Shown here: positions 10,020-27,365 of the stretch, piece after piece
Numbering within the stretch: position 1 is the first letter of the stretch
Layout: each line of letters begins with the position of its first letter
From: Oscillospiraceae bacterium
GTDB taxonomy: Bacteria > Bacillota > Clostridia > Oscillospirales > Oscillospiraceae
Direction of reading: 5' to 3'
Length of the DNA: 45,036 nt
Assembly: GCA_022800665.1 (NCBI GenBank)
Contig: JAAWQS010000014.1
Span: 1-45,036 of the forward strand
Program-made: the position numbers and the translations under genes
The notes under the pieces: generated by a model
Database searches by the model: none
Seen by the model: only the letters and a program-made list of their open reading frames with translations
Told to the model about the DNA's origin: nothing

Positions 10020-10049
10020 TTGACAAGTCCCGTTTCTATGTGATACAAT
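10020..10049 (+). promoter_or_regulatory. Sigma-A promoter of the T-box operon
   Basis: TTGACA (10020-10025), 18-bp spacer, TACAAT (10044-10049). Transcription would begin near 10056, a short distance before Stem I of the T-box leader. Confidence 0.75.
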
Positions 10050-10069: not shown

Positions 10070-10350
10070 CCAAATGCGTAGAAGGCGTTATGCCCTGTTG
10101 TGAGCGTTGTCAGAGAACCGGCGGTTGGTGCGAGCCGGTCAGCGGCGGCGGGGCGGCTGGCGCCGGAGCGGGACGCCCCAACGATGCGTTTTCCAGTAGG
10201 GCGCCACGGTTTTGCCCCCGTTATCCAGGCAGAGGCTTGCTGGAGCCTGATTGAGAGCGCGCTCAGGCGCGAATCCGGGTGGTACCGCGGTAAAACAGTT
10301 TTTTATCGTCCCGGGAGCAGAAAGACCTGCTCCCGGGATTTTTTCTTTTT
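10070..10350 (+). promoter_or_regulatory. T-box riboswitch leader (uncharged-tRNA sensor), probably leucine
   Basis: The leader shows the diagnostic T-box sequence GGGTGGTACCGCGG (10277-10290) followed by an intrinsic terminator. Stem I is recognisable by CAGAGA (10111-10116), the helix ACCGGC/GCCGGT and the apical loop GGTTGGTGCGA. A Stem III-like hairpin ends in CCCGTTAT near 10217-10224. In the tentative Stem I fold, GGCG/CGCC and GCCC/GGGC flank an internal loop whose 3' strand GGCTGG (10155-10160) contains CTG followed by a purine, a possible Leu specifier. TGGT in the T-box implies a tRNA discriminator A, compatible with Leu, Ala, Val or Ile but not with Gly (U). The fold was done by eye, so the amino acid remains uncertain. 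Confidence 0.9.
10309..10350 (+). terminator. T-box regulated intrinsic terminator
   Basis: A 12-bp stem TCCCGGGAGCAG (10309-10320), loop AAAGAC, CTGCTCCCGGGA (10327-10338), then TTTTTTCTTTTT. It is positioned to compete with the antiterminator formed by the T-box sequence just upstream. Confidence 0.9.
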
Positions 10351-10414
10351 CCTGAGACAGGCCGTCAATACGCGGCTGGACGCCGCAAAGGATTAAAAAA
10401 GGAGAAGCAGAGCT

Positions 10415-11827
10415 ATGAGAACTATTTACATTTCCGACGTCACCCTGCGGGAGGCCGGCAAGGACCGGACCGGAACGCTGAGTTTCAAGGAACGGGTGGA
10501 GATTGCCCGCTCCCTGGACCGGCTCCAGGTGGACGCTATTGAATTGCCCCCCATCGGGGACGCCAAGTCCGACACCCTCAGCAACAAGACCATCGCCTCC
10601 GTCGTGACCTCCGCCTGCGTATCCGCCGCCGCCGGAGTGACGGAGGAGAGCGTAGACGCGGCCTGGGAGAGCATCCGCGGCGCACGGAAACCCGCGCTGC
10701 ACATCATGCTCCCCGCCTCTGCGGTCCAGATGGAGTACCTCTGCCACAAGAAGGCCCCCGCCATGCTGGAGCTTGTCAAGGCCCTGGTGGAGCGGGCGCG
10801 GTACCACACGGAGCAGGTGGAGTTTTCCGCCCTGGACGCCACCCGCGCAGAGACAGACGTGCTCTGCCGGCTGCTGGACGCCGCTGCAGCGGCGGGCGCG
10901 GAGACCGTTACGCTCTGCGACTCCGCCGGAATCATGACGCCCGGCGAGTGCGCAGAGTTTGTCCGGATGGTACTGGAACAGGTACCTGCGCTGAAAAACG
11001 TGCGGCTGGGCGTGGAGCTGAGCAACAACCTGAAGATGGCGGTGGCCTGCGCCGCTGCCGCCGTGGATGCGGGAGCCGAGGTGGTCAAAACGGCCATCAC
11101 CCCCATGGATATCCCCACTACAAAGGCTTTTGCCGCCTACATGACTGCCCGCGGGGAGAGCAAGGGCCTGCGCTACGGCCTGCGGACCACAGAGCTGGCC
11201 CGCGCCGCCGCTCAGCTGCAGTGGATGCTGCAAACCGAGCGTAGCAGCGGTTCCCCCTTTGACAGCGGGGTCAGCGAGGGCGCGCCCACCATCTGTCTGA
11301 CCGCCGGGGACGATATCAGCGAGGTGGTCAAGGTGGTGCGGCGCCTGGGCTATGATCTGAGCGAGGAGGACAACGCCAAGGTATTTGAGGCGTTCCGCCG
11401 TATTGCCTCCAAAAAGCACTTCGTCAGCACACGGGAGCTGGACGCTATCGTAGCCAGCTCCGCCATGCAGGTCCCCTCCGTCTACCGGATTGTCAACTAT
11501 GTCATCACCTGCGGCAATCTGACCAGCGCAATGGCTACCCTGACTTTGGAGCGGGAGGGGGAGAAGCAGCAGGGCGTATGCGCCGGGGACGGCCCCATTG
11601 ACGCGGCTTTCCTGGCCATTGAGCAGATCATCGGCCACCACTACGAGCTGGCCGACTACCAGATTCAGACCGTCACCGAGGGCCGGGAGGCCATGGGTTC
11701 CGCCCTGGTGAAGCTGCGCTCCAACGGCAAGCTTTATTCGGGCAACGGCATTTCCACCGACGTCATCGGCGCCAGTATCCGGGCCTATATCAGCGCACTG
11801 AACAAGATCATGTACGAGGAGGCGTAA
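10415..11827 (+). CDS. LeuA/HMGL-family protein lacking canonical metal ligands
   Basis: The 470-residue protein has a TIM-barrel HMGL-like domain (about 1-300), a linker and a C-terminal LeuA dimer/allosteric domain (about 370-465: GDGPIDAAFLAIEQIIG; YQIQTVTEGREAMGSALV; GNGISTDVIGASIRAYI). This is the 2-isopropylmalate/homocitrate/citramalate synthase architecture. However the RDGxQ motif reads REAGKD (residues 12-17), and the HxHND metal motif reads ELSNN in GVELSNNLKMAVA. The metal-binding Asp and both His are therefore replaced. Standard synthase chemistry is doubtful; it may have a different reaction or be a sensor. It starts at ATG 10415 behind AAGGAG, and a T-box leader controls it. 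The next gene starts 2 bp after its stop. Confidence 0.8.
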   Translation: MRTIYISDVTLREAGKDRTGTLSFKERVEIARSLDRLQVDAIELPPIGDAKSDTLSNKTIASVVTSACVSAAAGVTEESVDAAWESIRGARKPALHIMLPASAVQMEYLCHKKAPAMLELVKALVERARYHTEQVEFSALDATRAETDVLCRLLDAAAAAGAETVTLCDSAGIMTPGECAEFVRMVLEQVPALKNVRLGVELSNNLKMAVACAAAAVDAGAEVVKTAITPMDIPTTKAFAAYMTARGESKGLRYGLRTTELARAAAQLQWMLQTERSSGSPFDSGVSEGAPTICLTAGDDISEVVKVVRRLGYDLSEEDNAKVFEAFRRIASKKHFVSTRELDAIVASSAMQVPSVYRIVNYVITCGNLTSAMATLTLEREGEKQQGVCAGDGPIDAAFLAIEQIIGHHYELADYQIQTVTEGREAMGSALVKLRSNGKLYSGNGISTDVIGASIRAYISALNKIMYEEA

Positions 11828-11829
11828 TC

Positions 11830-14301
11830 ATGAAGCTCTCTTATACGATCCGTAATTGGTCCGGACAGGACTGGGCCGGTTTCTGCACCGCCGCTGTGGA
11901 CGCAAAGCTCCAGGGCCTGGAGATGGACAGCGTCCGCAACCCCGCCCTGACCTCCCGCAGCAGCCCCACCAATCCCGAACTGGCTGTTGCGGCCCGCCGC
12001 CAGCTGATGGGACAGAATCTGACCATCCCCTGCGTGGGGGTAGAGGCCGATTTGACCTCCCCGGCGGCGGAGGACGAGGTTTCCGCCGCTGTCGAGACCG
12101 CCCGCAACCTGCTGGTTTCCTATGTGCTGCTGCATACGGACAGCGGCAGCGGCGAGGAGATTATCCAGCGGCTGCAATCCTTTGTGGACATAGCCGAGCG
12201 TGCCGGTGTGGTTCTGCTGCTGGAGAGCAGCGGTCCCATGGGCGACACAAAAAAGCTGGTGGAGGTGCTGGACTACTTTGCCTGCGACCATCTCTCCGCC
12301 TGCTGGAACATGTTTGACACCTGCCTGCTCCAGAACGAGACCCCGGAGCAGACCATCACCAATCTGGGGGCCTATGTCCGCCACGTGCGCATCCATGATG
12401 GCACGCCGGAAAACGGCCATGTTTCCCCGGAGCTGATGGGGGAAGGAAAACTGCCGGTTCAGGACCTGATGAACGCCCTGCGGTCCGTCAACTATGACGG
12501 CTTCATCTCCCTGGTCTGGGACCCCGCCTGGGTGGAGGGGCTGGAGGACCTGGACATGATCCTCACCCACTACGGCGTGTATCTCTCCCGGTTTGAGCGG
12601 GAGAGCCGGAAAAAACACCTCTACTATAACACCGCCGGTACCGGTCAGTATGTCTGGAAGAAGGACACGGTCATCGACCGCACCTTCCCCCAGGTGCTGG
12701 ACCGGATGGTGGAGGAGTTCCCCGACCAGTACGCCTTCAAATACACGACCCTGGACTACACCCGCACCTATGCCCAGTTCCGGGACGACGTGGACCAGTT
12801 CGCCCGCTCCCTCATTGCCATGGGCGTGGGGCCGGGGGACAAGGTGGCGATCTGGGCCACCAACGTCCCCGCCTGGTTTATCACCTTCTGGGCTACCACC
12901 AAAATCGGTGCGGTGCTGGTCACGGTCAACACCGCCTATAAGATTCACGAGGCGGAATATCTGCTCCGCCAGTCCGACACCCACACCCTGGTGATGATCG
13001 AGAGCTACCGGGACAGCCACTATGCGGAGATTATCGCCGAGCTGTGTCCGGAGCTGGCCTCCGCCAAGCCCGGCAAGCCCCTCCACTGCAAGCGTCTTCC
13101 CTTCCTGCGCAACGTGGTCACGGTGGGCTACCGGCAGACCGGGTGCCTGACATGGGAGGAGGCAGTGGCCCTCTCTGGACGGGTGTCTCTCCAGGAGGTC
13201 CGCCGCCGGGCCGCTGCGGTCCGGGTCCACGATGTGGCCAATATGCAGTACACCTCCGGGACCACCGGCTTCCCCAAGGGCGTGATGCTCACCCACTACA
13301 ACGTGGTGAACAACGGCAAATATATCGGAGACCACATGGACCTGTCCACCGCCGACCGGATGATGATTCAGGTCCCCATGTTCCACTGCTTCGGCATGGT
13401 GCTGTCCATGACCGCCTCCATGACCCACGGCACGACTATGTGTCCCCTGCCCTACTTCTCTCCGAAACCCGCCCTGGCCTGCGTCAATCAGGAGCGGATT
13501 ACCACCTTTAACGGCGTACCCACCATGTTCATTGCTATGATGAACCACGCCGATTTCGCCAAAACGGACTTCTCCCACATGCGCACGGGCATTATGGCCG
13601 GGGCCAACTGCCCGCCGGAGCTGATGCGCAAGGCGGCAGACGTGATGAACATGAAACAGATTATCAGCGTCTTTGGCCAGACCGAGGCATCTCCCGGCTG
13701 TACCATGAGCAGCTTCGACGATCCCCTGGATGTGCGCACAGAGACCGTTGGCAGCCGCTTTGCCAATGTGGAGTGCAAGATCATCGACCCGGACACCGGG
13801 GAGGAATGTCCCATCGGGGTCAGCGGCGAATTTGTGGCGCGGGGCTACAACATTATGAAGGGCTACTATAAAATGCCCGGCGCAACCGCAGAGGCGATTG
13901 ACCGCCAGGGCTGGCTCCACTCCGGCGACCTGTGCTGCGAGGACGAGAACGGCAATTTCCGGGTCACGGGCCGGCTGAAGGATATGATTATCCGGGGCGG
14001 CGAGAATATCTATCCCCGTGAGATTGAGGAGTTTATCTACACCAACCCCAAGGTCCGGGACGTGCAGGTCATCGGCGTGCCGGACGAGCAGTACGGCGAG
14101 GAGATTATGGCCTGCATCATCTTGAAAGAGGGGGAGACGATGACGGAGGAGGAGCTGAAGAGCTTTGTCCTGTCCCATATGGCGAAGCACAAGGTTCCCC
14201 GGTATGTGGACTTTGTGGATGCGTTCCCCATGAATGCGGCGGGTAAGATTCTCAAGTACAAGATGAGAGAGGAAGCCCAGAAAAAGCTGGGATTGAAATG
14301 A
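11830..14301 (+). CDS. Fusion: xylose-isomerase-like TIM barrel + AMP-forming acyl-CoA ligase
   Basis: The 823-residue protein joins two enzymes. Residues 1-~255 form a sugar-isomerase/AP-endonuclease-2 type TIM barrel (MKLSYTIRNWSGQDWAGF; LLLESSG; VRHVRIHDG; GFISLVWDPAW), where the usual last Glu ligand appears to be Val. Residues ~270-823 form a complete acyl-CoA synthetase: P-loop YTSGTTGFPKGVML, GQTEASPG, HSGDL, hinge GRLKDMIIRGGENIYP and catalytic Lys in NAAGKILKYK. The ligase should activate a carboxylate via acyl-AMP to a CoA thioester. Start ATG 11830 follows GAGGAGG. There is no internal stop or frameshift and no start site between domains, so the fusion looks genuine. The substrate is unknown; the operon suggests a branched or short-chain acid. 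Confidence 0.85.
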   Translation: MKLSYTIRNWSGQDWAGFCTAAVDAKLQGLEMDSVRNPALTSRSSPTNPELAVAARRQLMGQNLTIPCVGVEADLTSPAAEDEVSAAVETARNLLVSYVLLHTDSGSGEEIIQRLQSFVDIAERAGVVLLLESSGPMGDTKKLVEVLDYFACDHLSACWNMFDTCLLQNETPEQTITNLGAYVRHVRIHDGTPENGHVSPELMGEGKLPVQDLMNALRSVNYDGFISLVWDPAWVEGLEDLDMILTHYGVYLSRFERESRKKHLYYNTAGTGQYVWKKDTVIDRTFPQVLDRMVEEFPDQYAFKYTTLDYTRTYAQFRDDVDQFARSLIAMGVGPGDKVAIWATNVPAWFITFWATTKIGAVLVTVNTAYKIHEAEYLLRQSDTHTLVMIESYRDSHYAEIIAELCPELASAKPGKPLHCKRLPFLRNVVTVGYRQTGCLTWEEAVALSGRVSLQEVRRRAAAVRVHDVANMQYTSGTTGFPKGVMLTHYNVVNNGKYIGDHMDLSTADRMMIQVPMFHCFGMVLSMTASMTHGTTMCPLPYFSPKPALACVNQERITTFNGVPTMFIAMMNHADFAKTDFSHMRTGIMAGANCPPELMRKAADVMNMKQIISVFGQTEASPGCTMSSFDDPLDVRTETVGSRFANVECKIIDPDTGEECPIGVSGEFVARGYNIMKGYYKMPGATAEAIDRQGWLHSGDLCCEDENGNFRVTGRLKDMIIRGGENIYPREIEEFIYTNPKVRDVQVIGVPDEQYGEEIMACIILKEGETMTEEELKSFVLSHMAKHKVPRYVDFVDAFPMNAAGKILKYKMREEAQKKLGLK

Positions 14302-14864
14302 GCCGTCAGCTGCCGCTGCGCAGAATTCTGCTGTTGGTCATGGCCGCGGGCCTGACCGGATGCCTGGCCTTCGGCGCGGCTTACTGCGCCCGTCCTGGGA
14401 CAGCGTGGTATTTCACCGCTGCGGTCGCATCCGGTATGTTTGCCTATCACATGTTCATCCGCTTTTTGTCCCCCGCCGTGCTGTGGTTGTTTTTCCGGAA
14501 GCGGTACGATTACCGGCGCAGGTGGTTTCAGCAAAAGCCCTGGGAACCGGAGCTTTACCGGTTTCTGCGGGTCAAGCGGTGGAAGGCGAACGCAGTCACC
14601 TATGACCCCAGGGAGTTTTCTCTCAGGCTGCACTCCTTGGAGGAGGTCATCAACAACATGTGCCATGCGGAGGCGGTCCACGAGCTCACCGCCGTCTTCA
14701 GTCTGGCCTCCGTACTCTTTGCCATCCCTTTTGGCGCAGTCCCCGTCTTCTGGCTCACAGCCCTTGCAGCGGCGGCGGCGGACCTCTCCTGCGTTGCCAT
14801 ACAGCGGTACAACAGGCCCCGGCTGGTGAAAATATCAGAGCGGAAAAGAGCGGCTGACCCGTAA
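14298..14864 (+). CDS. CrtO-like membrane acyltransferase family protein
   Basis: The 188-residue protein has two N-terminal membrane spans (LLLVMAAGLTGCLAFGAAYC and about 36-65), a basic loop with WF and RVKRWKANAV, the motif HAEAVHEL, two more membrane spans and a terminal IQRYNRPRL. This order matches the glycosyl-4,4'-diaponeurosporenoate acyltransferase (CrtO) family, where RKWK, CRAE..H and QRxNRPR are conserved. In clostridia such proteins occur without carotenoid genes, so the acceptor is open. The ATG overlaps the ligase stop as ATGA, so it is coupled to acyl-CoA supply. I infer that it transfers the acyl group made by the ligase to a membrane molecule. Confidence 0.6.
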   Translation: MSRQLPLRRILLLVMAAGLTGCLAFGAAYCARPGTAWYFTAAVASGMFAYHMFIRFLSPAVLWLFFRKRYDYRRRWFQQKPWEPELYRFLRVKRWKANAVTYDPREFSLRLHSLEEVINNMCHAEAVHELTAVFSLASVLFAIPFGAVPVFWLTALAAAAADLSCVAIQRYNRPRLVKISERKRAADP

Positions 14865-18969: not shown

Positions 18970-19260
18970 GTGGACATATTTCATTCGGAGGGCGCACAGA
19001 TGCTGATTCAGGCGGTTCTCGCCCTGCGGACCGAGGAGGAGTGCAGGGCTTTTCTGGAGGACCTGATGACCGGAAAGGAAATTCAGGACTGCGCCCAGCG
19101 TCTGCTGGTGGCCAGCCTGCTGCGCAAGGGCATGGTTTACAGCCAGATTGCCAATGCTACCGGGGCCAGCAGCGCAACCATCAGCCGCGTCAACCGCTGC
19201 TATACCTACGGGACCGGCGGGTACCAGACGGCCTTGGACCGCCTGCCGGGGACGGATTGA
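18970..19260 (+). CDS. YerC/YecD-family TrpR-like repressor (HisR-type)
   Basis: The ~96-residue protein is all-helical and belongs to the TrpR-like YerC/YecD family: EECRAFLEDLMTGKEIQDCA, QRLLVASLLRKGMVYSQIA, and the recognition region NATGASSATISRVNRCYTYG. The family was predicted by comparative genomics to repress histidine genes in Firmicutes (HisR), and here it heads a complete his operon. I favour GTG 18970 because AAAGGGG lies 8-9 bp upstream; ATG 18952 in the same frame is the alternative. It probably senses histidine as co-repressor, by analogy with TrpR. The hisZ start follows 61 bp after its stop. Confidence 0.88.
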   Translation: MDIFHSEGAQMLIQAVLALRTEEECRAFLEDLMTGKEIQDCAQRLLVASLLRKGMVYSQIANATGASSATISRVNRCYTYGTGGYQTALDRLPGTD

Positions 19261-19321
19261 CAGCTCTCATACGATTCCCTGAAAAACAATGCACGATCAC
19301 AATGATATGGAGGATTTCTAT

Positions 19322-20416
19322 ATGGACACCATACTCCGCCCCGATGAGCGGGCCGGACTCGCCCTGCGGGAGCTGTACCACCGCCGGGGCTACCAGCCCT
19401 ACCGCATGAGCAAATTCGAGGCTTATGACCTCTATGTGCGCAACAAAAGTTTTCTGGTCAGTGAGAACGTCATCACCTTCACCGACACCGACGGCCAACT
19501 GATGGCCCTCAAGCCGGACGTCACCCTCTCCATCGTGAAGAACGCGCCCCCCGCCGGCGGCGCGCTCCAGAAGGTGTACTACCACGAAAACGTCTACCGC
19601 ACCTCCCCCGCCGCCATGGGCTTCCAGGAGATCATGCAGACTGGACTGGAGTGTACCGGCTCCCTGGACCTCTATGCCATGGGCGAGGTGCTGGCCCTGG
19701 CCGCCGAGAGCATGTCGCTGCTCAACCGCGGGGATTACCTGCTGGACCTGGGGCATATGGGCTTTGTCACCGGTCTGCTGGAGGGGCAGGAGGACAGCGT
19801 GCGAAAAGAACTGCTCGCGGAGATTGGCCGGAAGAACGCCCCCGCCATCCGCACCGCCTGCGCCCAGGCGGGCATCGGCCACAGCCTGTCGGAAGCCCTC
19901 TGCAGCCTTGCGCTGCTCTACGGCCCGCCGGACGAGGCGCTGCCCCAGCTGAAAAATCTGCCGGACCGGAGCGGCGTGCAGTCCTCCCTGGAGGAGCTGG
20001 AGAGCCTGTGCGCTCTCCTGAAAGACCGGGGCCTTGCGGAGAACCTGCGTCTGGATTTCTCTATTGTCAACGATATGAGCTACTATAACGGCGTCATTTT
20101 CCGCGGCTATCTGCCGGGACTGCCCAGCGGCGTCCTGGCGGGGGGGCGATACGACAACCTGCTGCGACGCATGGGCAAGCAGGGCGGCGCAATCGGCTTT
20201 GCCGTCTACCTGGACCAGCTGGAGCGGCTGGAGAAGGCGGGGGAGCTTGACGTGGATACGCTGCTGCTCTACCGCGCCGGGGACGACCCTGCCGCCGTGG
20301 CCCGGCTGGCGGACTCGCTGGCGGAGCAGGGGAAGACGGTCCGTGTGGAGCGGAACATCCCCCAGGGCCTGCGGTACCGGGAGACGGTCCGGTTTGGAGA
20401 AGGAGGACAGGGGTAA
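19322..20416 (+). CDS. hisZ: ATP phosphoribosyltransferase regulatory subunit
   Basis: The 364-residue protein is a HisRS paralogue without tRNA charging capacity. It shows class II aaRS-like motifs (MALKPDVTLSIVKN as motif 2 region; RLDFSIVNDMSYYNGVIFRG; GVLAGGRYDNLLRRMG as motif 3) but only a short C-terminus. HisZ pairs with the short HisG to form the active, histidine-feedback-inhibited enzyme. ATG 19322 has GGAGG at 7 bp; ATG 19289 in frame lacks a site. Its stop overlaps the hisG start (TAATG), so the two subunits are made together. Confidence 0.93.
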   Translation: MDTILRPDERAGLALRELYHRRGYQPYRMSKFEAYDLYVRNKSFLVSENVITFTDTDGQLMALKPDVTLSIVKNAPPAGGALQKVYYHENVYRTSPAAMGFQEIMQTGLECTGSLDLYAMGEVLALAAESMSLLNRGDYLLDLGHMGFVTGLLEGQEDSVRKELLAEIGRKNAPAIRTACAQAGIGHSLSEALCSLALLYGPPDEALPQLKNLPDRSGVQSSLEELESLCALLKDRGLAENLRLDFSIVNDMSYYNGVIFRGYLPGLPSGVLAGGRYDNLLRRMGKQGGAIGFAVYLDQLERLEKAGELDVDTLLLYRAGDDPAAVARLADSLAEQGKTVRVERNIPQGLRYRETVRFGEGGQG

Positions 20417-21051
20417 TGGAAATGATTCATATTGCGCTGCCGAAAGGGCGGCTGGGGGAAAAGGTCTACGCCCGGTTCAAAGCCGCCGGGTATCCTTGCC
20501 CCGCCATTGAGGAGGAGAACCGGAAGCTGATTTTTGAAAATCCGGAGGCAGGGGTCTGCTATTTCTGGGTGAAGCCGTCGGACGTGGCCATCTATGTGGA
20601 GCGGGGCGCGGCGGATGTGGGCGTGGCGGGCCGGGACATCCTGCTGGAGTACGCGCCGGACGTGTATGAACTGGCAGATTTGGGATTGGGCAAGTGCCGG
20701 ATGTGCGTGGCGGCTAAGAAGGATTTCCGGGACAACCCGGACCGGACGCTGCGGGTCGCCACGAAATTCCCCCATATCGCCGCCCGCTACTACAGCGCCC
20801 ACAGCCGGCAGATTGATATTATCAAGCTCAACGGCTCCATTGAAATTGCCCCGATTCTGGGGCTGAGCGACGTGATCGTGGACATTGTGGAGACCGGAAA
20901 AACGCTGCTGGAGAACAATCTGGAGCCGCGGGAGACCATTGTGCCCATCAGTGCGCGGCTGATCGCCAACAAGGTCGGCTATAAGTTCAAGCACGACCAG
21001 ATTTCACAGCTGTGCCAAAAGGCGGCGGAGCCGCTCCAGACAAAGATATGA
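20416..21051 (+). CDS. hisG: ATP phosphoribosyltransferase, short-form catalytic subunit
   Basis: At 211 residues this is the short HisG that needs HisZ. It begins MEMIHIALPKGRLGEKVYAR, has the PRPP-binding segment DVIVDIVETGKTLLENNL with ETG(K/R)T, and lacks the regulatory C-terminal domain of long HisG. It catalyses the first step, ATP + PRPP to phosphoribosyl-ATP. The start codon overlaps the hisZ stop. Confidence 0.96.
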   Translation: MEMIHIALPKGRLGEKVYARFKAAGYPCPAIEEENRKLIFENPEAGVCYFWVKPSDVAIYVERGAADVGVAGRDILLEYAPDVYELADLGLGKCRMCVAAKKDFRDNPDRTLRVATKFPHIAARYYSAHSRQIDIIKLNGSIEIAPILGLSDVIVDIVETGKTLLENNLEPRETIVPISARLIANKVGYKFKHDQISQLCQKAAEPLQTKI

Positions 21052-21061
21052 GGTGTTTCCT

Positions 21062-22348
21062 ATGATACGTTTACTCAACGCAGGCGAGGTTTCGCTATCG
21101 GAGATTTTAGCCCGCACGGAGGACAAGCGGGACATAGCCGGTACAGTCTCGGCTATTCTGGCGGACGTACGGCAGAACGGCGACGCCGCTCTCCGCCGGT
21201 ATACCAAAGAGTTCGACGGCGCGGAGCCGGACGCCCTGGAGGTTCCCGCCGACCGGCTGGACCAGGCTCTGGCCGGACTGGACAGGGACCTGCGTGCGGT
21301 TCTGGAGGAGGCGGCGGAGAATATCCGCGCCTTCCACCGCCGCCAGATTCGCAGTGATTTTATCATCAGCGAAAAGAACGGCGTTATCCTGGGCCAGAAG
21401 ATCACCCCCATCAATCGGGCCGCCCTCTATATCCCCGGCGGCACCGCCGCCTATCCCTCCACCGTGCTCATGAACTGTATTCCCGCCAAGCTGGCCGGAT
21501 GCCGGGAGATTGTGATGGTTTCGCCCCCCACCTGCGGCGGGGACATCAACCCGGTGATTCTGGCCGCCGCCCGGCTGGCGGGGGTGGACCGGGTCTTCCG
21601 CTGCGGCGGTGCGCAGGCCGTCGCGGCCCTGGCCTACGGCACGGAGACAGTGCCGCAGGCGGACAAGATTGTCGGTCCCGGCAACGCCTTTGTGGCGGAG
21701 GCCAAGCGGCAGGTTTACGGTCAGGTGGGCATCGACGTCATCGCCGGCCCCAGCGAGATCCTGGTGGTGGCGGACGGAAACAGCAATCCCCGGCACGTTG
21801 CCGCCGACATGCTCAGCCAGGCGGAGCACGACCGCAGCGCCAGCGCGGTGTTGGCGACGGACTCCCCGGCCCTGGCGGAGGCAGTCCGTACAGAGCTGGA
21901 ACGCCAGCTGTCCCTGCTGCCCCGCGAGGAGATTGCCCGCGCGTCCATCGAGGCCAACGGGAAAATCATTCTGACGGGTACGATTCCGGAGGCAATTGAG
22001 ATTGCCAACGCCCTGGCGCCGGAGCATCTGGAGCTGTGCGTGGACAATCCCTTCGACTATCTGGACCAGGTAAAAAACGCAGGTTCTATTTTTATGGGGC
22101 GCCACTGTCCGGAGGCGTTGGGCGACTATTTTGCCGGTCCCAACCACACCCTGCCCACCAACGGCGCGGCCCGGTATGCCAGTCCGCTGTCCGTGGACGA
22201 CTTCATCAAAAAATCCCAGTTTACCTATTACACCGGCCCCGCTCTGTCCGCCGCCGCCGGCAAGATTGCCGCGTTTGCCCGGCAGGAGGGTCTGGAGGGC
22301 CATGCCCGGAGCGTACAATCCCGGTTTGAGGAGGAGACAGAAGTATGA
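21062..22348 (+). CDS. hisD: Histidinol dehydrogenase
   Basis: The 428-residue enzyme has the NAD/zinc site signatures: IPGGTAAYPSTVLMN, IVGPGNAFVAEAKRQVYG, IAGPSEILVVADG, the zinc His in QAEHDRSASAVL and GPNHTLPTNGAARYASPLSV. It oxidises histidinol to histidine in two NAD-dependent steps. ATG 21062 was preferred over GTG 21053 because TGAGGTG is six bases upstream. It follows hisG by 10 bp and overlaps hisC (ATGA). Confidence 0.97.
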   Translation: MIRLLNAGEVSLSEILARTEDKRDIAGTVSAILADVRQNGDAALRRYTKEFDGAEPDALEVPADRLDQALAGLDRDLRAVLEEAAENIRAFHRRQIRSDFIISEKNGVILGQKITPINRAALYIPGGTAAYPSTVLMNCIPAKLAGCREIVMVSPPTCGGDINPVILAAARLAGVDRVFRCGGAQAVAALAYGTETVPQADKIVGPGNAFVAEAKRQVYGQVGIDVIAGPSEILVVADGNSNPRHVAADMLSQAEHDRSASAVLATDSPALAEAVRTELERQLSLLPREEIARASIEANGKIILTGTIPEAIEIANALAPEHLELCVDNPFDYLDQVKNAGSIFMGRHCPEALGDYFAGPNHTLPTNGAARYASPLSVDDFIKKSQFTYYTGPALSAAAGKIAAFARQEGLEGHARSVQSRFEEETEV

Positions 22349-23409
22349 GCCGTTTTATGAGCAGGCGTTTTGACGGCCTGGAGGCGTACGTCCCCGGCGA
22401 ACAGCCCCAGGATATGCAATATGTGAAGCTGAACACCAATGAATCCCCCTTTCCGCCGTCCCCGGCGGTATTCGCCGCGCTGAACGACTCCGAGACGGCG
22501 CGCCTGAATCTGTACCCGGACCCGGAGGGCCGGGTCCTGCGGCAGAAGCTGGCCGCGCTGTACGGCGTGGATATGGAGAACGTATTTCTGGCGAACGGTT
22601 CCGACGAACTGCTGAACTTCTTTTTCATGGCCTTCTGCGACCAGGAGCGGCCTGTGGCCTTTCCGTCCGTGAGCTACGGATTTTACCCTGTCTATGCCAG
22701 CCTGTACAATCTGCCCCGCGCGGAAATTCCTTTGCATGAAGGCTTCCGGCTGGAACCGGCGGACTACTGCGGTATCCGTAAAAACATCGTCATTGCCAAC
22801 CCCAACGCCCCCACGGGCCGGACCGTCAGCGTAGCGGAAATTGAGGAGATTGTCCGAACAAATCCGGACCACGCAGTCCTTATTGACGAGGCGTACATCG
22901 ACTTCGGCGGCGAGAGTTGCGTGGGGCTGGTGTCGAAATACGAGAACCTGCTGGTGGGACAGACCTTCTCCAAGTTCCGCTCCCTGGCTGGCGGACGGCT
23001 GGGCTACGCCATCGGCAGCCGGACGTTGATTGAAGACCTGGATAAGATCAAATATTCCACCAACTCCTACAACATCAACCGTCTGACAATGGCGGCGGCG
23101 GCCGCTGCCATCGACAGCAACGACTACTATGTCCAAAACAGCAGAATCATCCAGGAAAACCGCGCCTATACGGCCGCCGGACTGGAGGAGCTGGGTTTCG
23201 AGACACTGCCCAGCAAGGCTAACTTTATTTTCACCCGCTGTCCCCAGGTGGAGGGCGGCAGGCTCTACCGAAGCCTGAAGGCAAAGGGCGTCCTGGTCCG
23301 GCGCTGGGATAAGCCGGAGATTTCGGATTACTGCCGTGTTACCATCGGGAACCGGGAGCAGATGGACATTTTCCTGGAAAAAGTCCGGGAAATTCTGAAG
23401 GAGGGATAA
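22345..23409 (+). CDS. hisC: Histidinol-phosphate aminotransferase
   Basis: The 354-residue fold-type I PLP enzyme shows KLNTNESPFPPSPAV at the N-terminus, IVIANPNAPTGR, IDEAYIDFGG and the PLP Lys in TFSKFRSLAGGRLGYAIG. It transaminates imidazole-acetol phosphate. Its ATG overlaps the hisD stop (ATGA). Length and motifs are standard. Confidence 0.96.
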   Translation: MSRFMSRRFDGLEAYVPGEQPQDMQYVKLNTNESPFPPSPAVFAALNDSETARLNLYPDPEGRVLRQKLAALYGVDMENVFLANGSDELLNFFFMAFCDQERPVAFPSVSYGFYPVYASLYNLPRAEIPLHEGFRLEPADYCGIRKNIVIANPNAPTGRTVSVAEIEEIVRTNPDHAVLIDEAYIDFGGESCVGLVSKYENLLVGQTFSKFRSLAGGRLGYAIGSRTLIEDLDKIKYSTNSYNINRLTMAAAAAAIDSNDYYVQNSRIIQENRAYTAAGLEELGFETLPSKANFIFTRCPQVEGGRLYRSLKAKGVLVRRWDKPEISDYCRVTIGNREQMDIFLEKVREILKEG

Positions 23410-23410
23410 C

Positions 23411-23998
23411 ATGCGCACCGCCACACTGAACCGCAGAACAGCGGAGACCGAGATCGCCCTGACCCTGGACCTGGACGGCGTTGGGACCAGTCAAGTGGAC
23501 ACTGGCTGCGGTTTTCTGGACCACATGCTGACCCTCTTTGCCCGCCACGGGCGTTTTGATCTACAGGTTTCCTGCAAAGGCGACACCTATGTGGACGACC
23601 ACCACACCGTGGAGGATATCGGTATTTGCTTGGGGGATGCTTTCGCGCAGACGCTGGGGGAAAAGCGGGGCATCCGGCGTTACGGCTCCGCGATTCTGCC
23701 GATGGATGAGGCGTTGATTCTGACAGCCGTTGACAGCAGCGGCAGGGGAATGCTATGCTATGAGATGAACATTCCCACAGAGAAGGTGGGGACCTTCGAC
23801 ACGGAGCTGACAGAGGAATTTCTGCTGGCTTTCACCCGCCGGTCGGGCATGACGCTGCACGTCCGGCAGCTGGCAGGGACCAACAGCCACCATATTATTG
23901 AGGGCGTGTTCAAGAGTCTGGCCCGCACGCTGCGGGAGGCCGTCTCCATTGACCCCGATTTTGCGGATGAAATCCCCTCGACGAAGGGGGTGCTGTAG
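23411..23998 (+). CDS. hisB: Imidazoleglycerol-phosphate dehydratase
   Basis: This is the monofunctional 195-residue IGPD. It carries the His-rich manganese motifs DTGCGFLDHMLTLFARHG and YVDDHHTVEDIGICLG, and again in the second half SHHIIEGVFKSLAR. There is no histidinol-phosphatase domain; that activity comes from the PHP protein at the operon end. ATG 23411 follows GAAGGAGGGATAAC, one base after the hisC stop. Confidence 0.97.
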   Translation: MRTATLNRRTAETEIALTLDLDGVGTSQVDTGCGFLDHMLTLFARHGRFDLQVSCKGDTYVDDHHTVEDIGICLGDAFAQTLGEKRGIRRYGSAILPMDEALILTAVDSSGRGMLCYEMNIPTEKVGTFDTELTEEFLLAFTRRSGMTLHVRQLAGTNSHHIIEGVFKSLARTLREAVSIDPDFADEIPSTKGVL

Positions 23999-24000
23999 GC

Positions 24001-24609
24001 GTGGTTGCTATTATTGATTACGGCGTGGGGAATCTGTTTTCCCTGAAAAGCTCTTTCCGGGCTATCGGCGAGGAAGCGGTGGTGACTGGAGAGCCGGAGG
24101 TCATCCGGAGCGCGGACAAGCTGGTACTGCCCGGCGTGGGGGCGTTCGGCGACGCGGCGGCGCTGCTGCGGAAAAATGGTATGGATCAAGTGGTCTGCGC
24201 CGAGGCGGCGGCGGGAAAACCGCTGCTGGGGATCTGTCTGGGGATGCAGCTGTTGTTTGACTACGGCGTGGAGTACGGGCGTCATGAGGGGTTGGGACTG
24301 ATTCCCGGTTCTGTGCAGCCCATCCGGCCTGTGATTCCGGCGGCGTACAAGGTCCCCCATATCGGTTGGAACGGACTGCATTTTCCAAGGGAAAAAAGCC
24401 CGCTGTTCCGATACGTTCAGGAGGGGGACTGCGTCTATTTTGTGCATTCTTTCTACGGCGCGGACTGCAATGAGAGCGTCATTGCTACGGCAGAATACGG
24501 CCCGGAGCTGACGGCGGCGGTGGCGAAGGGGAATGTGTACGGCGTGCAGTTCCATCCGGAGAAGAGCGGGAGCGTAGGGCTGCATATTTTGAGGGCGTTT
24601 TGTGAGTGA
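24001..24609 (+). CDS. hisH: Imidazole glycerol phosphate synthase, glutamine amidotransferase subunit
   Basis: The 202-residue class I glutaminase has the nucleophile Cys in LLGICLGMQLLFDYG (about residue 80) and the catalytic His/Glu in GVQFHPEKSG. It supplies ammonia to HisF. It begins with GTG at 24001, two bases after the hisB stop. In most operons hisA follows directly; here a Uma2 gene intervenes. Confidence 0.95.
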   Translation: MVAIIDYGVGNLFSLKSSFRAIGEEAVVTGEPEVIRSADKLVLPGVGAFGDAAALLRKNGMDQVVCAEAAAGKPLLGICLGMQLLFDYGVEYGRHEGLGLIPGSVQPIRPVIPAAYKVPHIGWNGLHFPREKSPLFRYVQEGDCVYFVHSFYGADCNESVIATAEYGPELTAAVAKGNVYGVQFHPEKSGSVGLHILRAFCE

Positions 24610-24624
24610 AAGGAGCTTTCGCGG

Positions 24625-25209
24625 ATGAGTATGCCTTTGTTTGAATCTTCGGAACACGAAAATATGACGGTAGAAGAATTCCAGCGGTTTGCGGAAACGC
24701 ACGAGGGAATGTGGGAGCTTTATGACGGAATGCCGGTTAAAATGCAGTCCCCTTCGCCGGAGCATCAGTGGATCAGCCACGAGGTCATGTCACAATTTCG
24801 AGATTATTTCAGAGACAAGGGCTGTATTCCGCTGCAGGAATTGGACGTATGCGTATCCCACCAAGCGCAGAGGTATGAAATACGAAAGCCGGATATACTT
24901 GTGTTTTGCAGCAAAGATCAGCTCAAAGGGAATTTGGTGTATTCCCCGCAGCTGGTGACAGAAATCTGGTCGCCGTCAAACACAATGAAGGAACGCTTGG
25001 AAAAAATGCGGACGTATCAGCAGGCAGGCGTAAAAGAATTCTGGCAAATTGATTACTGCAACCGGGATTTTGCAGTCGTAACACTGAGCAGAGAAAACCT
25101 TATGACAATAACCGGCGGTAGCTTCCAGGAAGATATTGTGTCAGAATATTTCCCTGGATTGCGTGTGAGCCTCGCGGAATACGAAAGCTTTATAGCACAA
25201 GTCAGATAG
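24625..25209 (+). CDS. Uma2 family (DUF820) endonuclease-like protein inside the his operon
   Basis: The 194-residue protein is a PD-(D/E)XK superfamily Uma2 member: MTVEEFQRFAETHEGMWELY, YDGMPVKMQSPSPEHQWIS, RKPDILVF as the active-site Asp strand, TEIWSPSNTMKERLEKM and YQQAGVKEFWQIDYCNRDF. Sampled lines of this gene have about 45-50% GC by hand count, against well over 60% in hisF, and its codon use is A/T-ending unlike every neighbour. It has its own ribosome site (AAAGGAGC) and is co-oriented, so the operon stays transcribable. Uma2 genes are common accessory genes of unknown role; this one was very likely acquired later than the his genes. Confidence 0.88.
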   Translation: MSMPLFESSEHENMTVEEFQRFAETHEGMWELYDGMPVKMQSPSPEHQWISHEVMSQFRDYFRDKGCIPLQELDVCVSHQAQRYEIRKPDILVFCSKDQLKGNLVYSPQLVTEIWSPSNTMKERLEKMRTYQQAGVKEFWQIDYCNRDFAVVTLSRENLMTITGGSFQEDIVSEYFPGLRVSLAEYESFIAQVR

Positions 25210-25231
25210 ATAAAATAAGGAGGGGGACAGT

Positions 25232-25945
25232 ATGCTGATTTTCCCCGCAATTGACTTAAAGGACGGCAAGGTCGTCCGCTTGCACAAGGGCAGCTTCGAC
25301 ACGGTCCACCAGGTGGCGGACGACCCGGTGGCTACGGCGCGGACCTTTTACGAGGCCGGGGCGCGGTATCTGCACATGGTGGACCTGGATGGCGCAAAAG
25401 AAGGCGTACGAAAAAACAGCGTCATTGTCAGGGCCGTTGCAGACGCAGGGCTGAAAATTGAACTGGGCGGCGGCATCCGTTCCATGGAGGACATCCGGGC
25501 GGTGTTTGACCTGGGGGTCTGGCGCGTGGTAATCGGTTCCGCCGCAGTCACGGACCCAAACTTTGTACGGGCCGCAATCGAAGCCTGCGGAACGGAACGG
25601 GTTGCCGTGGGCATCGACGCAAAAAACGGCTCCGTCCGCACCGCCGGATGGGTGGAGGACGCGGGGCTGCATTACCTGGATTTCGCCCGCTCCATGGAGG
25701 CCCTTGGCGTCCGGCATCTCATTTTCACGGATATTGACACGGATGGGACGCTGGCCGGGCCGGCCTGCGGACGGCTGGCGGAACTGAAAGAGGCGGTCAG
25801 CTGTCAGATCACCGCCTCCGGCGGCGTGTCCTCCAATGCGGACCTGCGGGCCTTGCGCAATATGGAGCTTTACGCCGCCATCGTGGGCAAAGCCTGGTAT
25901 GCAGGGGAGGTGGATCTGCGGCAGGCTGTGGAGGAGTGCCAATGA
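25232..25945 (+). CDS. hisA: ProFAR isomerase
   Basis: A 237-residue (beta-alpha)8 barrel with the internal-duplication pattern: FPAIDLKDGKVVRLHKGSFD at the start with catalytic Asp, AVGIDAKNGSV, HLIFTDIDTDGTLAGP with the second Asp, and ITASGGVSSNADL at the phosphate site. It isomerises ProFAR to PRFAR. ATG 25232 has AAGGAGGGGGACAGT upstream. Its stop overlaps hisF. Confidence 0.96.
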   Translation: MLIFPAIDLKDGKVVRLHKGSFDTVHQVADDPVATARTFYEAGARYLHMVDLDGAKEGVRKNSVIVRAVADAGLKIELGGGIRSMEDIRAVFDLGVWRVVIGSAAVTDPNFVRAAIEACGTERVAVGIDAKNGSVRTAGWVEDAGLHYLDFARSMEALGVRHLIFTDIDTDGTLAGPACGRLAELKEAVSCQITASGGVSSNADLRALRNMELYAAIVGKAWYAGEVDLRQAVEECQ

Positions 25946-26700
25946 TTACAAAACGGATTATTCCCTGCCTGGATGTGAAGGACGGACGGGTCGTTAAAGG
26001 GGTCAACTTCCTGGGGCTGGCCGACGTCAGCTCCCCGGTGAAGCTGGCGGAGTTCTACAGCAGCTGCGGCGCGGACGAGCTGGTATTCTATGACATCACT
26101 GCTTCCGCAGAGGGCCGCGCTCTGTTTACCGGTATCCTCACCGAAGTGGCCTCCACCATCTTCATCCCCCTGACGGTGGGGGGCGGCATCAACACAGTGG
26201 CGGATTTTGACCGGGTCCTCAAGTGCGGCGCGGATAAGGTGAGCGTCAATTCCGGCGCCATCCGGGACCCGTCCCTGATTGCCCAGGCGGCAAAAAAATA
26301 CGGCGACCAGTGTGTGGTGTTGTCGGTGGACGCCAAGCGGGTGGACGGACAGTTCCGGGTCTTCGCCAAGGGCGGGCGGGAGGACACCGGATTGGACGCT
26401 CTGGAATGGATTCGCCGGGGCGTAGGGGACGGCGCAGGAGAAATTGTTCTCAACAGCATCGACACCGACGGTGTGAAGAACGGCTTTGACCTGGAGATGC
26501 TGGCGGCAGTGTGCGAGATCGTGGATGTGCCGGTGATTGCGTCCGGCGGCGCGGGATGTGCGGAGCACTTCAAGACGCTGTTCGAGACCTTGCCGAAGGT
26601 AGACGCCGGTCTGGCGGCCTCTATTTTCCACTTCGGAGAGGTGTCCATCCCCGACCTGAAACGGGAGCTGGCCGCAGCCGGCATCAACATGCGTTTATAA
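25942..26700 (+). CDS. hisF: Imidazole glycerol phosphate synthase, cyclase subunit
   Basis: The 252-residue barrel shows [19 protein letters not shown] with catalytic Asp, the phosphate motif [24 protein letters not shown] with the second Asp and [12 protein letters not shown]. It joins PRFAR with ammonia from HisH to give IGP and AICAR. ATG 25942 overlaps the hisA stop (AATGA); GTG 25936 in frame is less likely because GGAGGAG is placed for the ATG. Confidence 0.96.
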
Positions 26701-26714
26701 TACGGGAGGAAATT

Positions 26715-27365
26715 ATGCTGAATATTGACGAGTTGAAATTTAACGGCCATGGTCTGATTCCGGCAATTGTGACGGATGCGTCCACCAAGAAGGTTCTGAC
26801 GCTGGCGTACATGAACCGGGAGAGCCTGGAAATCAGTATGCGGGAGGGCCGGACCTGCTTCTGGTCCCGGTCCAGGAAGGAGCTGTGGCGGAAGGGCGAG
26901 ACCAGCGGCAATGTGCAGCGCATCGTGGACATCACCGCCGACTGCGACCGGGACGCGCTGCTGGTGACGGTCAGCAAGGACGGCCCCGCCTGCCACCTGG
27001 GGACAGACTCCTGCTTTAATGACCAGGTGTTTCAGGGCGGCCAGACCGCGCCTTTTTCGGTGGAGGGACTATACGGCTTGCTGGAGGGCAGAAAAAAAGA
27101 CCTCCCCGAAGGATCCTACACCACGTACCTGTTCCAGAAGGGACTGGATAAAATCCTGAAAAAGGTGGGCGAGGAGTCCACGGAGGTCATTATCGCCGGG
27201 AAAGCCGGCGACAAGGCGGAGACGGTATATGAGGTTGCGGACCTGATGTATCATGTGATGGTGCTGATGGTGGAGATGGGTATTTCCGTGGAGGACATCC
27301 GGGCGGAACTGGCCTCCCGGCATGTCATCGACCACAAAGTGAAGCAAGAGAAGATGACCAAATGA
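26715..27365 (+). CDS. hisI: Bifunctional phosphoribosyl-AMP cyclohydrolase / phosphoribosyl-ATP pyrophosphatase
   Basis: The 216-residue fusion (HisIE) has the HisI part (~1-115: [33 protein letters not shown]; a Cys pair later in [10 protein letters not shown]) and the HisE helical pyrophosphatase (~120-216: [20 protein letters not shown] with [10 protein letters not shown]). It performs steps two and three of the pathway. ATG 26715 follows GGGAGGAAATT. The stop overlaps the next gene as ATGA. Confidence 0.96.

Follow-up and report, generated by a model that had tools for sequence, protein, structure and literature searches.

Rumen bacteria carboxylate isovalerate to leucine, a route that a passage of PMC7356843 describes as known since the 1960s, citing Allison, Bryant and Doetsch (1962) and Allison, Bucklin and Robinson (1966), and that a passage of PMC10658910 likewise states for methanogens. 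Here we describe an operon of an Oscillospiraceae bacterium (GenBank assembly GCA_022800665.1) in which a relative of the 2-isopropylmalate synthase LeuA and an acyl-CoA ligase lie behind a leucine T-box. It is probably the leucine branch of branched-chain amino acid synthesis from branched-chain volatile fatty acids. The stretch of DNA analysed, called the window below, is contig JAAWQS010000014.1 from position 1 to 45,036 (45,036 nucleotides). The proposed chemistry, carboxylation and amination, is like that of the rumen route, and record titles indicate the same kind of habitat; the rumen route is known as biochemistry. In the literature searched (short of most subscription journals), no paper was found that links the isovalerate route to a ligase under T-box control or to a relative of LeuA, nor did a term search of the T-box surveys PMC2494555 and PMC3766115 return any mention of acyl-CoA in their main texts. 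A first-pass annotation of the window had suggested an undescribed system. The pair of genes is widespread, and the proposed chemistry is that of the known rumen route.

Other described systems share parts with this locus. A T-box before leuA is known in other bacteria, as a passage of PMC2494555 states. The window protein resembles LeuA in having an HMGL-like barrel and a LeuA_dimer domain; it differs in having lost the metal ligands, in scoring under the LeuA cut-offs among the matches listed, in standing beside a ligase and in occurring mostly in genomes without LeuC. MbcS of Staphylococcus aureus activates branched short-chain acids, and is the best match of a ligase behind an isoleucine T-box in one related locus (L115). 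PMC10026030 describes MbcS as feeding lipid synthesis and as taking isovalerate poorly, whereas the window ligase belongs to another subfamily and is fused to a TIM barrel. The L115 ligase differs from MbcS by an added helix-turn-helix (HTH)-like and cupin part.

Aryl acid incorporation employs an arylacetate ligase and indolepyruvate:ferredoxin oxidoreductase, with ferredoxin-dependent carboxylation and transamination. The scheme of ligase, carboxylation and transamination is the same as that proposed here, but the acids are aromatic and the oxidoreductase is of another family. Another contig of the window genome, C76, encodes by our reading of the sequence a 545-aa ligase followed by IorA-like and IorB-like proteins (L156:5317-10833), a possible aromatic-acid counterpart; no T-box above the Rfam score was found at this set.

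The leucine T-box and the conserved gene pair

The features of the operon are as follows.

10020 to 10049, + strand: promoter-like site, TTGACA-18 nt-TACAAT, 11/12 matches
10070 to 10316, + strand: T-box leader, leucine specific (Rfam RF00230, 94.0 bits against a gathering score of 93, E 1.8e-19)
10157 to 10159, + strand: specifier codon CUG (Leu) in the specifier loop, read from the stem I register
10280 to 10283, + strand: UGGU T-box sequence of the antiterminator, from the Rfam alignment
10308 to 10339, + strand: intrinsic terminator stem of 13 pairs (9 G-C), then a T run; overlaps the antiterminator
10415 to 11827, + strand: LeuA-like protein, 470 aa, proposed leucine-sensing subunit (Pfam HMGL-like, 124 bits, and LeuA_dimer)
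10424 to 11098, + strand: changed HMGL-like barrel, residues 4-228 (Pfam; mean pairwise identity 0.51 in 111 homologues)
11423 to 11812, + strand: LeuA_dimer regulatory domain, residues 337-466 (PF08502, 105.8 bits against a gathering score of 24.9; identity 0.75 in 111 homologues)
11830 to 14301, + strand: TIM-barrel/acyl-CoA ligase fusion, 823 aa, proposed isovalerate--CoA ligase (Pfam; pairing with the LeuA-like gene)
11890 to 12519, + strand: Xylose-isomerase-like TIM barrel, residues 21-230 (PF01261, 57.4 bits)
12700 to 14247, + strand: AMP-forming acyl-CoA ligase domains, residues 291-680 and 731-806 (PF00501, 308 bits; PF13193, 66.5 bits)
14298 to 14864, + strand: CrtO-like membrane protein, 188 aa, outside the conserved unit (PF18927, 82.7 bits)

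Pfam confirms the three gene identities given in the first-pass annotation: a LeuA homologue, a TIM-barrel/acyl-CoA ligase fusion and a CrtO-like gene. The clear T-box that it had placed before them is borne out by RF00230 at exactly 10070-10316, the sole match above a gathering score in an Rfam scan of the window. The stem I register is set by GC at 10076-10077 pairing with GC at 10168-10169 and by GGCG pairing with CGCC. The UGGU of a T-box antiterminator would pair with the tRNA 3' end.

For comparison we collected 114 loci that carry a LeuA-like gene. Named genome contigs supplied 80 of these (the best 80 of 245, by their titles mostly gut or rumen Clostridia metagenome-assembled genomes), and a sample of the family the other 34. 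Some genomes are present twice (for example L142/L033, L143/L037, L144/L046), L079 and L080 are two contigs of one metagenome-assembled genome, and many loci end early. T-box counts refer to the 106 loci whose upstream region is 300 nt or longer (8 with a short upstream region were excluded), and counts of the CrtO neighbour to the 76 with at least 700 nt after the ligase.

The leader specifier is legible in 85 of 106 loci and is a leucine codon in all of them, CUC in 56 and CUG in 26 by script, with three more leucine codons read by eye. A script without GAGTGG antiterminators gave 81/102 loci and the wider script 85/106. The three specifiers misread by script are CUG in L115 (from the Rfam alignment), CUC in L108 and, by comparison with relatives, CUC in L126, whose helix is one base short. 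The T-box of L047 was seen by eye and falls under the Rfam score, which 16 of 20 family loci scanned pass. The specifier switches between two leucine codons and never to others, as fits leucine. Judged by these codons, the amino acid sensed by the operon leader is leucine, as the first-pass annotation had guessed. As a side observation, tetrahydrofolate (THF) riboswitch aptamers scored above the Rfam threshold in two loci (L115:6945-7045 and L156:759-856).

The LeuA-like gene is followed directly by the fusion in 112 of 114 loci, with a median gap of 20 nt. One of the exceptions ends there; the other (L141) has 1.6 kb without the fusion, which lies on another contig. In the window the gap is 2 bp, and the ligase gene then overlaps the CrtO-like gene by ATGA, a tight coupling just as first described. 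Beyond the window, however, the third gene does not accompany the pair: none of the 76 loci with room for a CrtO-like gene has one after the ligase, and the single homologue found lies elsewhere in one locus (L140). A neighbourhood survey thus upholds the pair and not the trio as the conserved unit. The CrtO-like gene is a bystander, and we rejected its product as a functional partner and as a member of the set.

Within the fusion, the TIM barrel is poorly conserved, with a mean identity of 0.44 against 0.77 for the ligase part (38 sequences).

Neighbouring genes, matched ligases and co-occurrence

The genes near the pair in related loci point to leucine made from isovalerate, and not to an acyl modification, because they include a 2-oxoacid:ferredoxin oxidoreductase, a branched-chain aminotransferase and ligases behind isoleucine and valine T-boxes. 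Four loci (L116, L133, L136 and L139) share one gene order, running from P-loop ATPase and ferredoxin through VorB, the oxidoreductase beta and gamma subunits and IlvE to the LeuA-like protein and the fusion; the L133 proteins score above the NCBIfam cut-offs for VorB (500 vs 399) and IlvE (485 vs 307). Elsewhere (L123, L124, L126, L134) IlvE and a PFOR of 1153-1165 aa come directly after the pair. Across the 114 loci the neighbours include PFOR (~1164 aa; 37 loci), an amidohydrolase (26), IlvE (13) and vorB (10), and 50 loci have either vorB or PFOR, whole or in piece. The PFOR at these loci is a separate paralogue in each of six genomes searched (6/6): locus-type copies are 75-100% identical to the query, and the other full or split copies of the same genomes 51-59%.

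Several loci that lack a T-box directly before the LeuA-like gene have other genes in its place. Vor genes lie directly upstream in L111, L133, L136, L138, L139 and L141, with ilvE between in four, and in L140 ilvE itself is directly upstream. A leucine T-box stands at the head of the whole operon in L133 and L136. As side observations, the T-box-less LeuA-like gene of L045 directly follows two genes that by our reading are azlC and azlD, for the export of branched-chain amino acids (L045:6714-7880), and a permease-like gene (cluster 16) is upstream in L064, L069, L073, L078 and L081, with no T-box within 700 nt. The P-loop ATPase of ~221 aa (L133:13434-14096; cluster 6, 12/114 loci) is a regular member of the vor clusters; its CbiA match, at 23.4 bits, is under the cut-off of 25.4.

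In the window genome the pair stands alone, without vor or IlvE neighbours. These are found on contig C75 (L154:8700-16624), where an isoleucine T-box precedes an HTH-cupin ligase, P-loop ATPase, ferredoxin, VorB, two subunits, a carbon-nitrogen hydrolase and IlvE. The isoleucine (AUC) leader was read from the sequence and is not above the Rfam score. C75 holds the sole IlvE match of the genome and its sole strong vorB match (another is at E 3.7e-10), so that the 2-oxoacid:ferredoxin oxidoreductase and the branched-chain aminotransferase of the isovalerate route are both present.

Beside the pair, or in vor clusters, are paralogous ligases that carry an HTH-like and cupin part at the N terminus. 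Of the two scanned with Pfam, both have a cupin match above threshold and one has an HTH match. L145 and L154 are one gene, counted once. By T-box, the 47 distinct ligases divide into isoleucine (26), valine (14), leucine (2) and none found (5), and no other amino acid was seen among them. In a FastTree phylogeny of 45 rows longer than 600 aa, which leaves out three short ligases, one clade (support 0.994) contains all the valine ligases, both leucine ligases and three unassigned ones, and the isoleucine ligases fall outside it. The isoleucine T-box ligase of L115 has MbcS as its best NCBIfam match (440 bits vs a cut-off of 850). For MbcS of S. aureus, PMC10026030 gives KM values of less than 10 uM with 2-methylbutyrate and with isobutyrate, and of more than 500 uM with isovalerate. 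These three acids correspond to isoleucine, valine and leucine, respectively. Since MbcS takes isovalerate poorly, a different ligase is expected for the leucine branch, and a separate isovalerate ligase under a leucine T-box would complete a three-ligase set. We infer isovalerate as the substrate of the window ligase from the T-box, the neighbours and the co-occurrence described below.

The LeuA-like protein is present in 37 of 150 genomes of the family (E < 1e-80) and in 34 of 291 genomes of the class (E 1e-80), the latter under 17 family labels, a spread that rules out an isolated oddity. In the family sample LeuC was called at E <= ~1e-35 in frames of ~415-530 aa, plus G028, with aconitase frames of 645-674 aa excluded. 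By this call LeuC is present in 3/37 genomes with the LeuA-like protein and in 69/113 others (p 8e-9, a value that overstates independence because the genomes are related, as holds for all these co-occurrence tests). The same carriers are poor in ilvC (7/37 vs 67/113) and rich in VorB (32/37 vs 36/113), HTH-cupin ligases (32/37 vs 20/113, a set picked by our reading of the search rows) and the fusion (36/37 vs 18/113); in the one remaining carrier the LeuA-like gene runs off the contig. At class level LeuC-type matches were found in 18/34 carriers and 203/257 others (Fisher p 0.002), a weaker contrast blurred by aconitases that pass E 1e-30, so we rely on the family sample.

The window genome is 95.4% complete. 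It has no LeuC at 1e-30 (the best LeuC-family match is at E 1.1e-25; LeuB and LeuD were not searched) and no match to canonical LeuA, and its two genus mates in the sample likewise lack canonical LeuA and LeuC. It does have ilvC, with ilvD and ilvBN beside it by our reading.

The proposed pathway would start with uncharged leucyl-tRNA, upon which the T-box would let transcription through. The fusion ligase would then form isovaleryl-CoA from isovalerate that the cell takes up in the gut. The next enzyme, encoded on C75 here and beside the pair in many relatives, would be a 2-oxoacid oxidoreductase dependent on ferredoxin, which would run in the direction of reductive carboxylation and convert isovaleryl-CoA to 2-ketoisocaproate, and the branched-chain aminotransferase IlvE would carry out the final step to leucine. 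The LeuA-like protein, probably a leucine-binding subunit, would contact the ligase and shut it off when leucine is plentiful. Gut bacteria without the normal leucine pathway would in this way use isovalerate, a waste acid of neighbouring microbes. The first-pass annotation had offered a pathway or an acyl-group modification induced by amino acid shortage. Of these, a pathway for leucine shortage fits; the acyl transfer finds no support, and the neighbours point to leucine synthesis.

Elsewhere in the window, the genes at 19000-27365 read as a histidine biosynthesis operon, with a small TrpR/YerC-like gene before it.

The LeuA relative

We aligned 111 LeuA-like sequences, including that of the window, after removing those that contain a stop or are no longer than 440 aa. 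The LeuA-like gene of L014 (G067) has one in-frame TAG. The window protein scores far under every LeuA cut-off among the NCBIfam matches listed (25 of 26), e.g. 276 vs 598.7 for TIGR00973. In place of the two histidines of the HxH motif, at positions that we take to be metal-ligand sites of LeuA, it has E201 and S203, and the NGxGERAGN loop is gone. The loss of metal ligands noticed at first pass extends to the relatives: both histidines are kept in 0/111 LeuA-like proteins, compared with 20/20 canonical LeuA of the same family. An ordinary 2-isopropylmalate synthase is ruled out by the lost ligands, the family cut-offs and LeuC not being found.

Mean pairwise identity among the 111 sequences is 0.75 in the regulatory domain, the most conserved part, vs 0.51 in the barrel, and 0.65 vs 0.45 in the same-family subset (32 sequences). 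The 20 canonical LeuA of the family show the reverse pattern, with 0.46 in the regulatory domain and 0.65 in the barrel. A PDB sequence search with the LeuA_dimer part alone gave nothing meaningful (best E 0.048).

Some genomes have the fusion and no LeuA-like match at E < 1e-80 (18/150). At 10 of the 18 loci the fusion stands immediately behind a leucine (CUC) T-box, with no LeuA-like gene found there, so the LeuA-like gene is not essential to the route. Another 5/18 have an altered LeuA-like gene (L201, L205, L206, L209, L212), and 3/18 have neither. A free-standing LeuA_dimer domain of 154 aa (82 bits) directly precedes the fusion in L206 (L206:635-1096), and no barrel match was found in the remainder of that contig piece. 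L205 has a cut-down barrel with the regulatory domain, and L201 and L212 have LeuA-like genes without most of the linker. The gene before the fusion in L209 (L209:2454-3449) encodes a barrel without the regulatory domain. This gene also adjoins an aminotransferase, and its genome, G111, has canonical LeuA and LeuC matches.

Read across these loci, the LeuA relative is the accessory, and the ligase, mostly under a leucine T-box, is the constant element. The simplest role for the relative would be leucine feedback on the ligase. We rate the chances as even that a LeuA relative whose synthase chemistry is lost serves as a leucine-sensing subunit. The barrel may still do something, perhaps as a contact or a second binding site, because of L209 and because some barrel residues are invariant, two of them differing from LeuA.

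Weighing the readings

Several observations weigh against the proposal. In 21/106 loci the 700 nt before the LeuA-like gene show no T-box, and the Rfam score is passed by only 1/8 loci picked because the first script had missed them. The fusion scores under all cut-offs among the NCBIfam matches listed (25 of 113; best PRK12583, 679 vs 832), so homology does not give the ligase substrate. NCBIfam names the neighbouring PFOR pyruvate:ferredoxin oxidoreductase (1707 bits). Three genomes have LeuC as well as the LeuA-like protein, and LeuC is also present in 7 of the 18 with the fusion and no LeuA-like match. Five carriers have no VorB match; G076 and G100 among them have PFOR beside the pair, and G043, G062 and G090 show neither a VorB match nor PFOR beside the pair. 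The window genome is itself one of the 7/37 carriers with ilvC, and so does not depend on the route for valine and isoleucine. Finally, two ligases of the valine clade (L133, L136) have a leucine specifier, in a T-box heading the whole operon.

The LeuA relative could belong to the same pathway and be an enzyme with metal-independent chemistry, acting for example on the acyl-CoA or 2-oxo acid of the route. We regard this as unlikely, though serious enough to keep in view. The barrel residues D141, R144 and D169, common to LeuA, are invariant in the 111 sequences, as is T166, and K225 is fixed in 110; at the last two positions LeuA has N and E (20/20). These residues, and L209 with its barrel and no regulatory domain, also speak against a pure sensor. 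On the other side, both metal histidines together occur in none of the 111 sequences, the barrel is more variable than the regulatory domain, 10/18 fusion-only loci have the leucine T-box on the fusion with no LeuA-like gene between, and L206 has the regulatory domain alone. The set of enzymes could also run in the catabolic direction, from leucine-derived isovaleryl-CoA to isovalerate with energy gain, since the same oxidoreductase and aminotransferase families can work oxidatively. A T-box, however, switches genes on when its amino acid is scarce, AMP-forming ligases are poor in reverse, and LeuC was not found in 34/37 carriers; we consider catabolism highly improbable.

The operon might instead make isovaleryl-CoA as a primer of iso-branched membrane lipids, for which MbcS in S. 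aureus offers a precedent (PMC10026030), and a CrtO-like gene happens to follow the window copy. This too appears improbable: amino-acid-specific T-boxes are matched to three amino acids, the pair is linked with vor and ilvE genes, and CrtO is not conserved. The version of the first-pass annotation, in which leucine controls a modification and the CrtO-like protein transfers the acyl group once it has been formed, can appeal to the ATGA overlap of the ligase and CrtO-like genes in the window genome. With no CrtO-like gene after the ligase in 76 loci and the lone homologue of L140 lying elsewhere, hardly any likelihood is left to it.

In its most far-reaching form, the preferred reading of leucine synthesis from isovalerate would have a dead relative of LeuA, the first enzyme of the classical leucine pathway, recruited to sense leucine for an unrelated enzyme at the start of a replacement pathway. 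Matched leucine, isoleucine and valine T-box ligases would allow each of the three branched-chain amino acids to be made from fatty acids that other gut microbes release, and one lineage would have trimmed the sensor to its leucine-binding domain alone. For this picture as a whole, the case for and the case against appear to us evenly balanced. If the LeuA relative is a sensor, it would be a clear example of a regulatory domain that outlives its enzyme. T-boxes can suggest substrates for ligases, and this locus provides the isovalerate dependence with genes, a mode of control and a marker that is easy to read. It would allow cross-feeding on isovalerate, 2-methylbutyrate and isobutyrate to be predicted from sequence.

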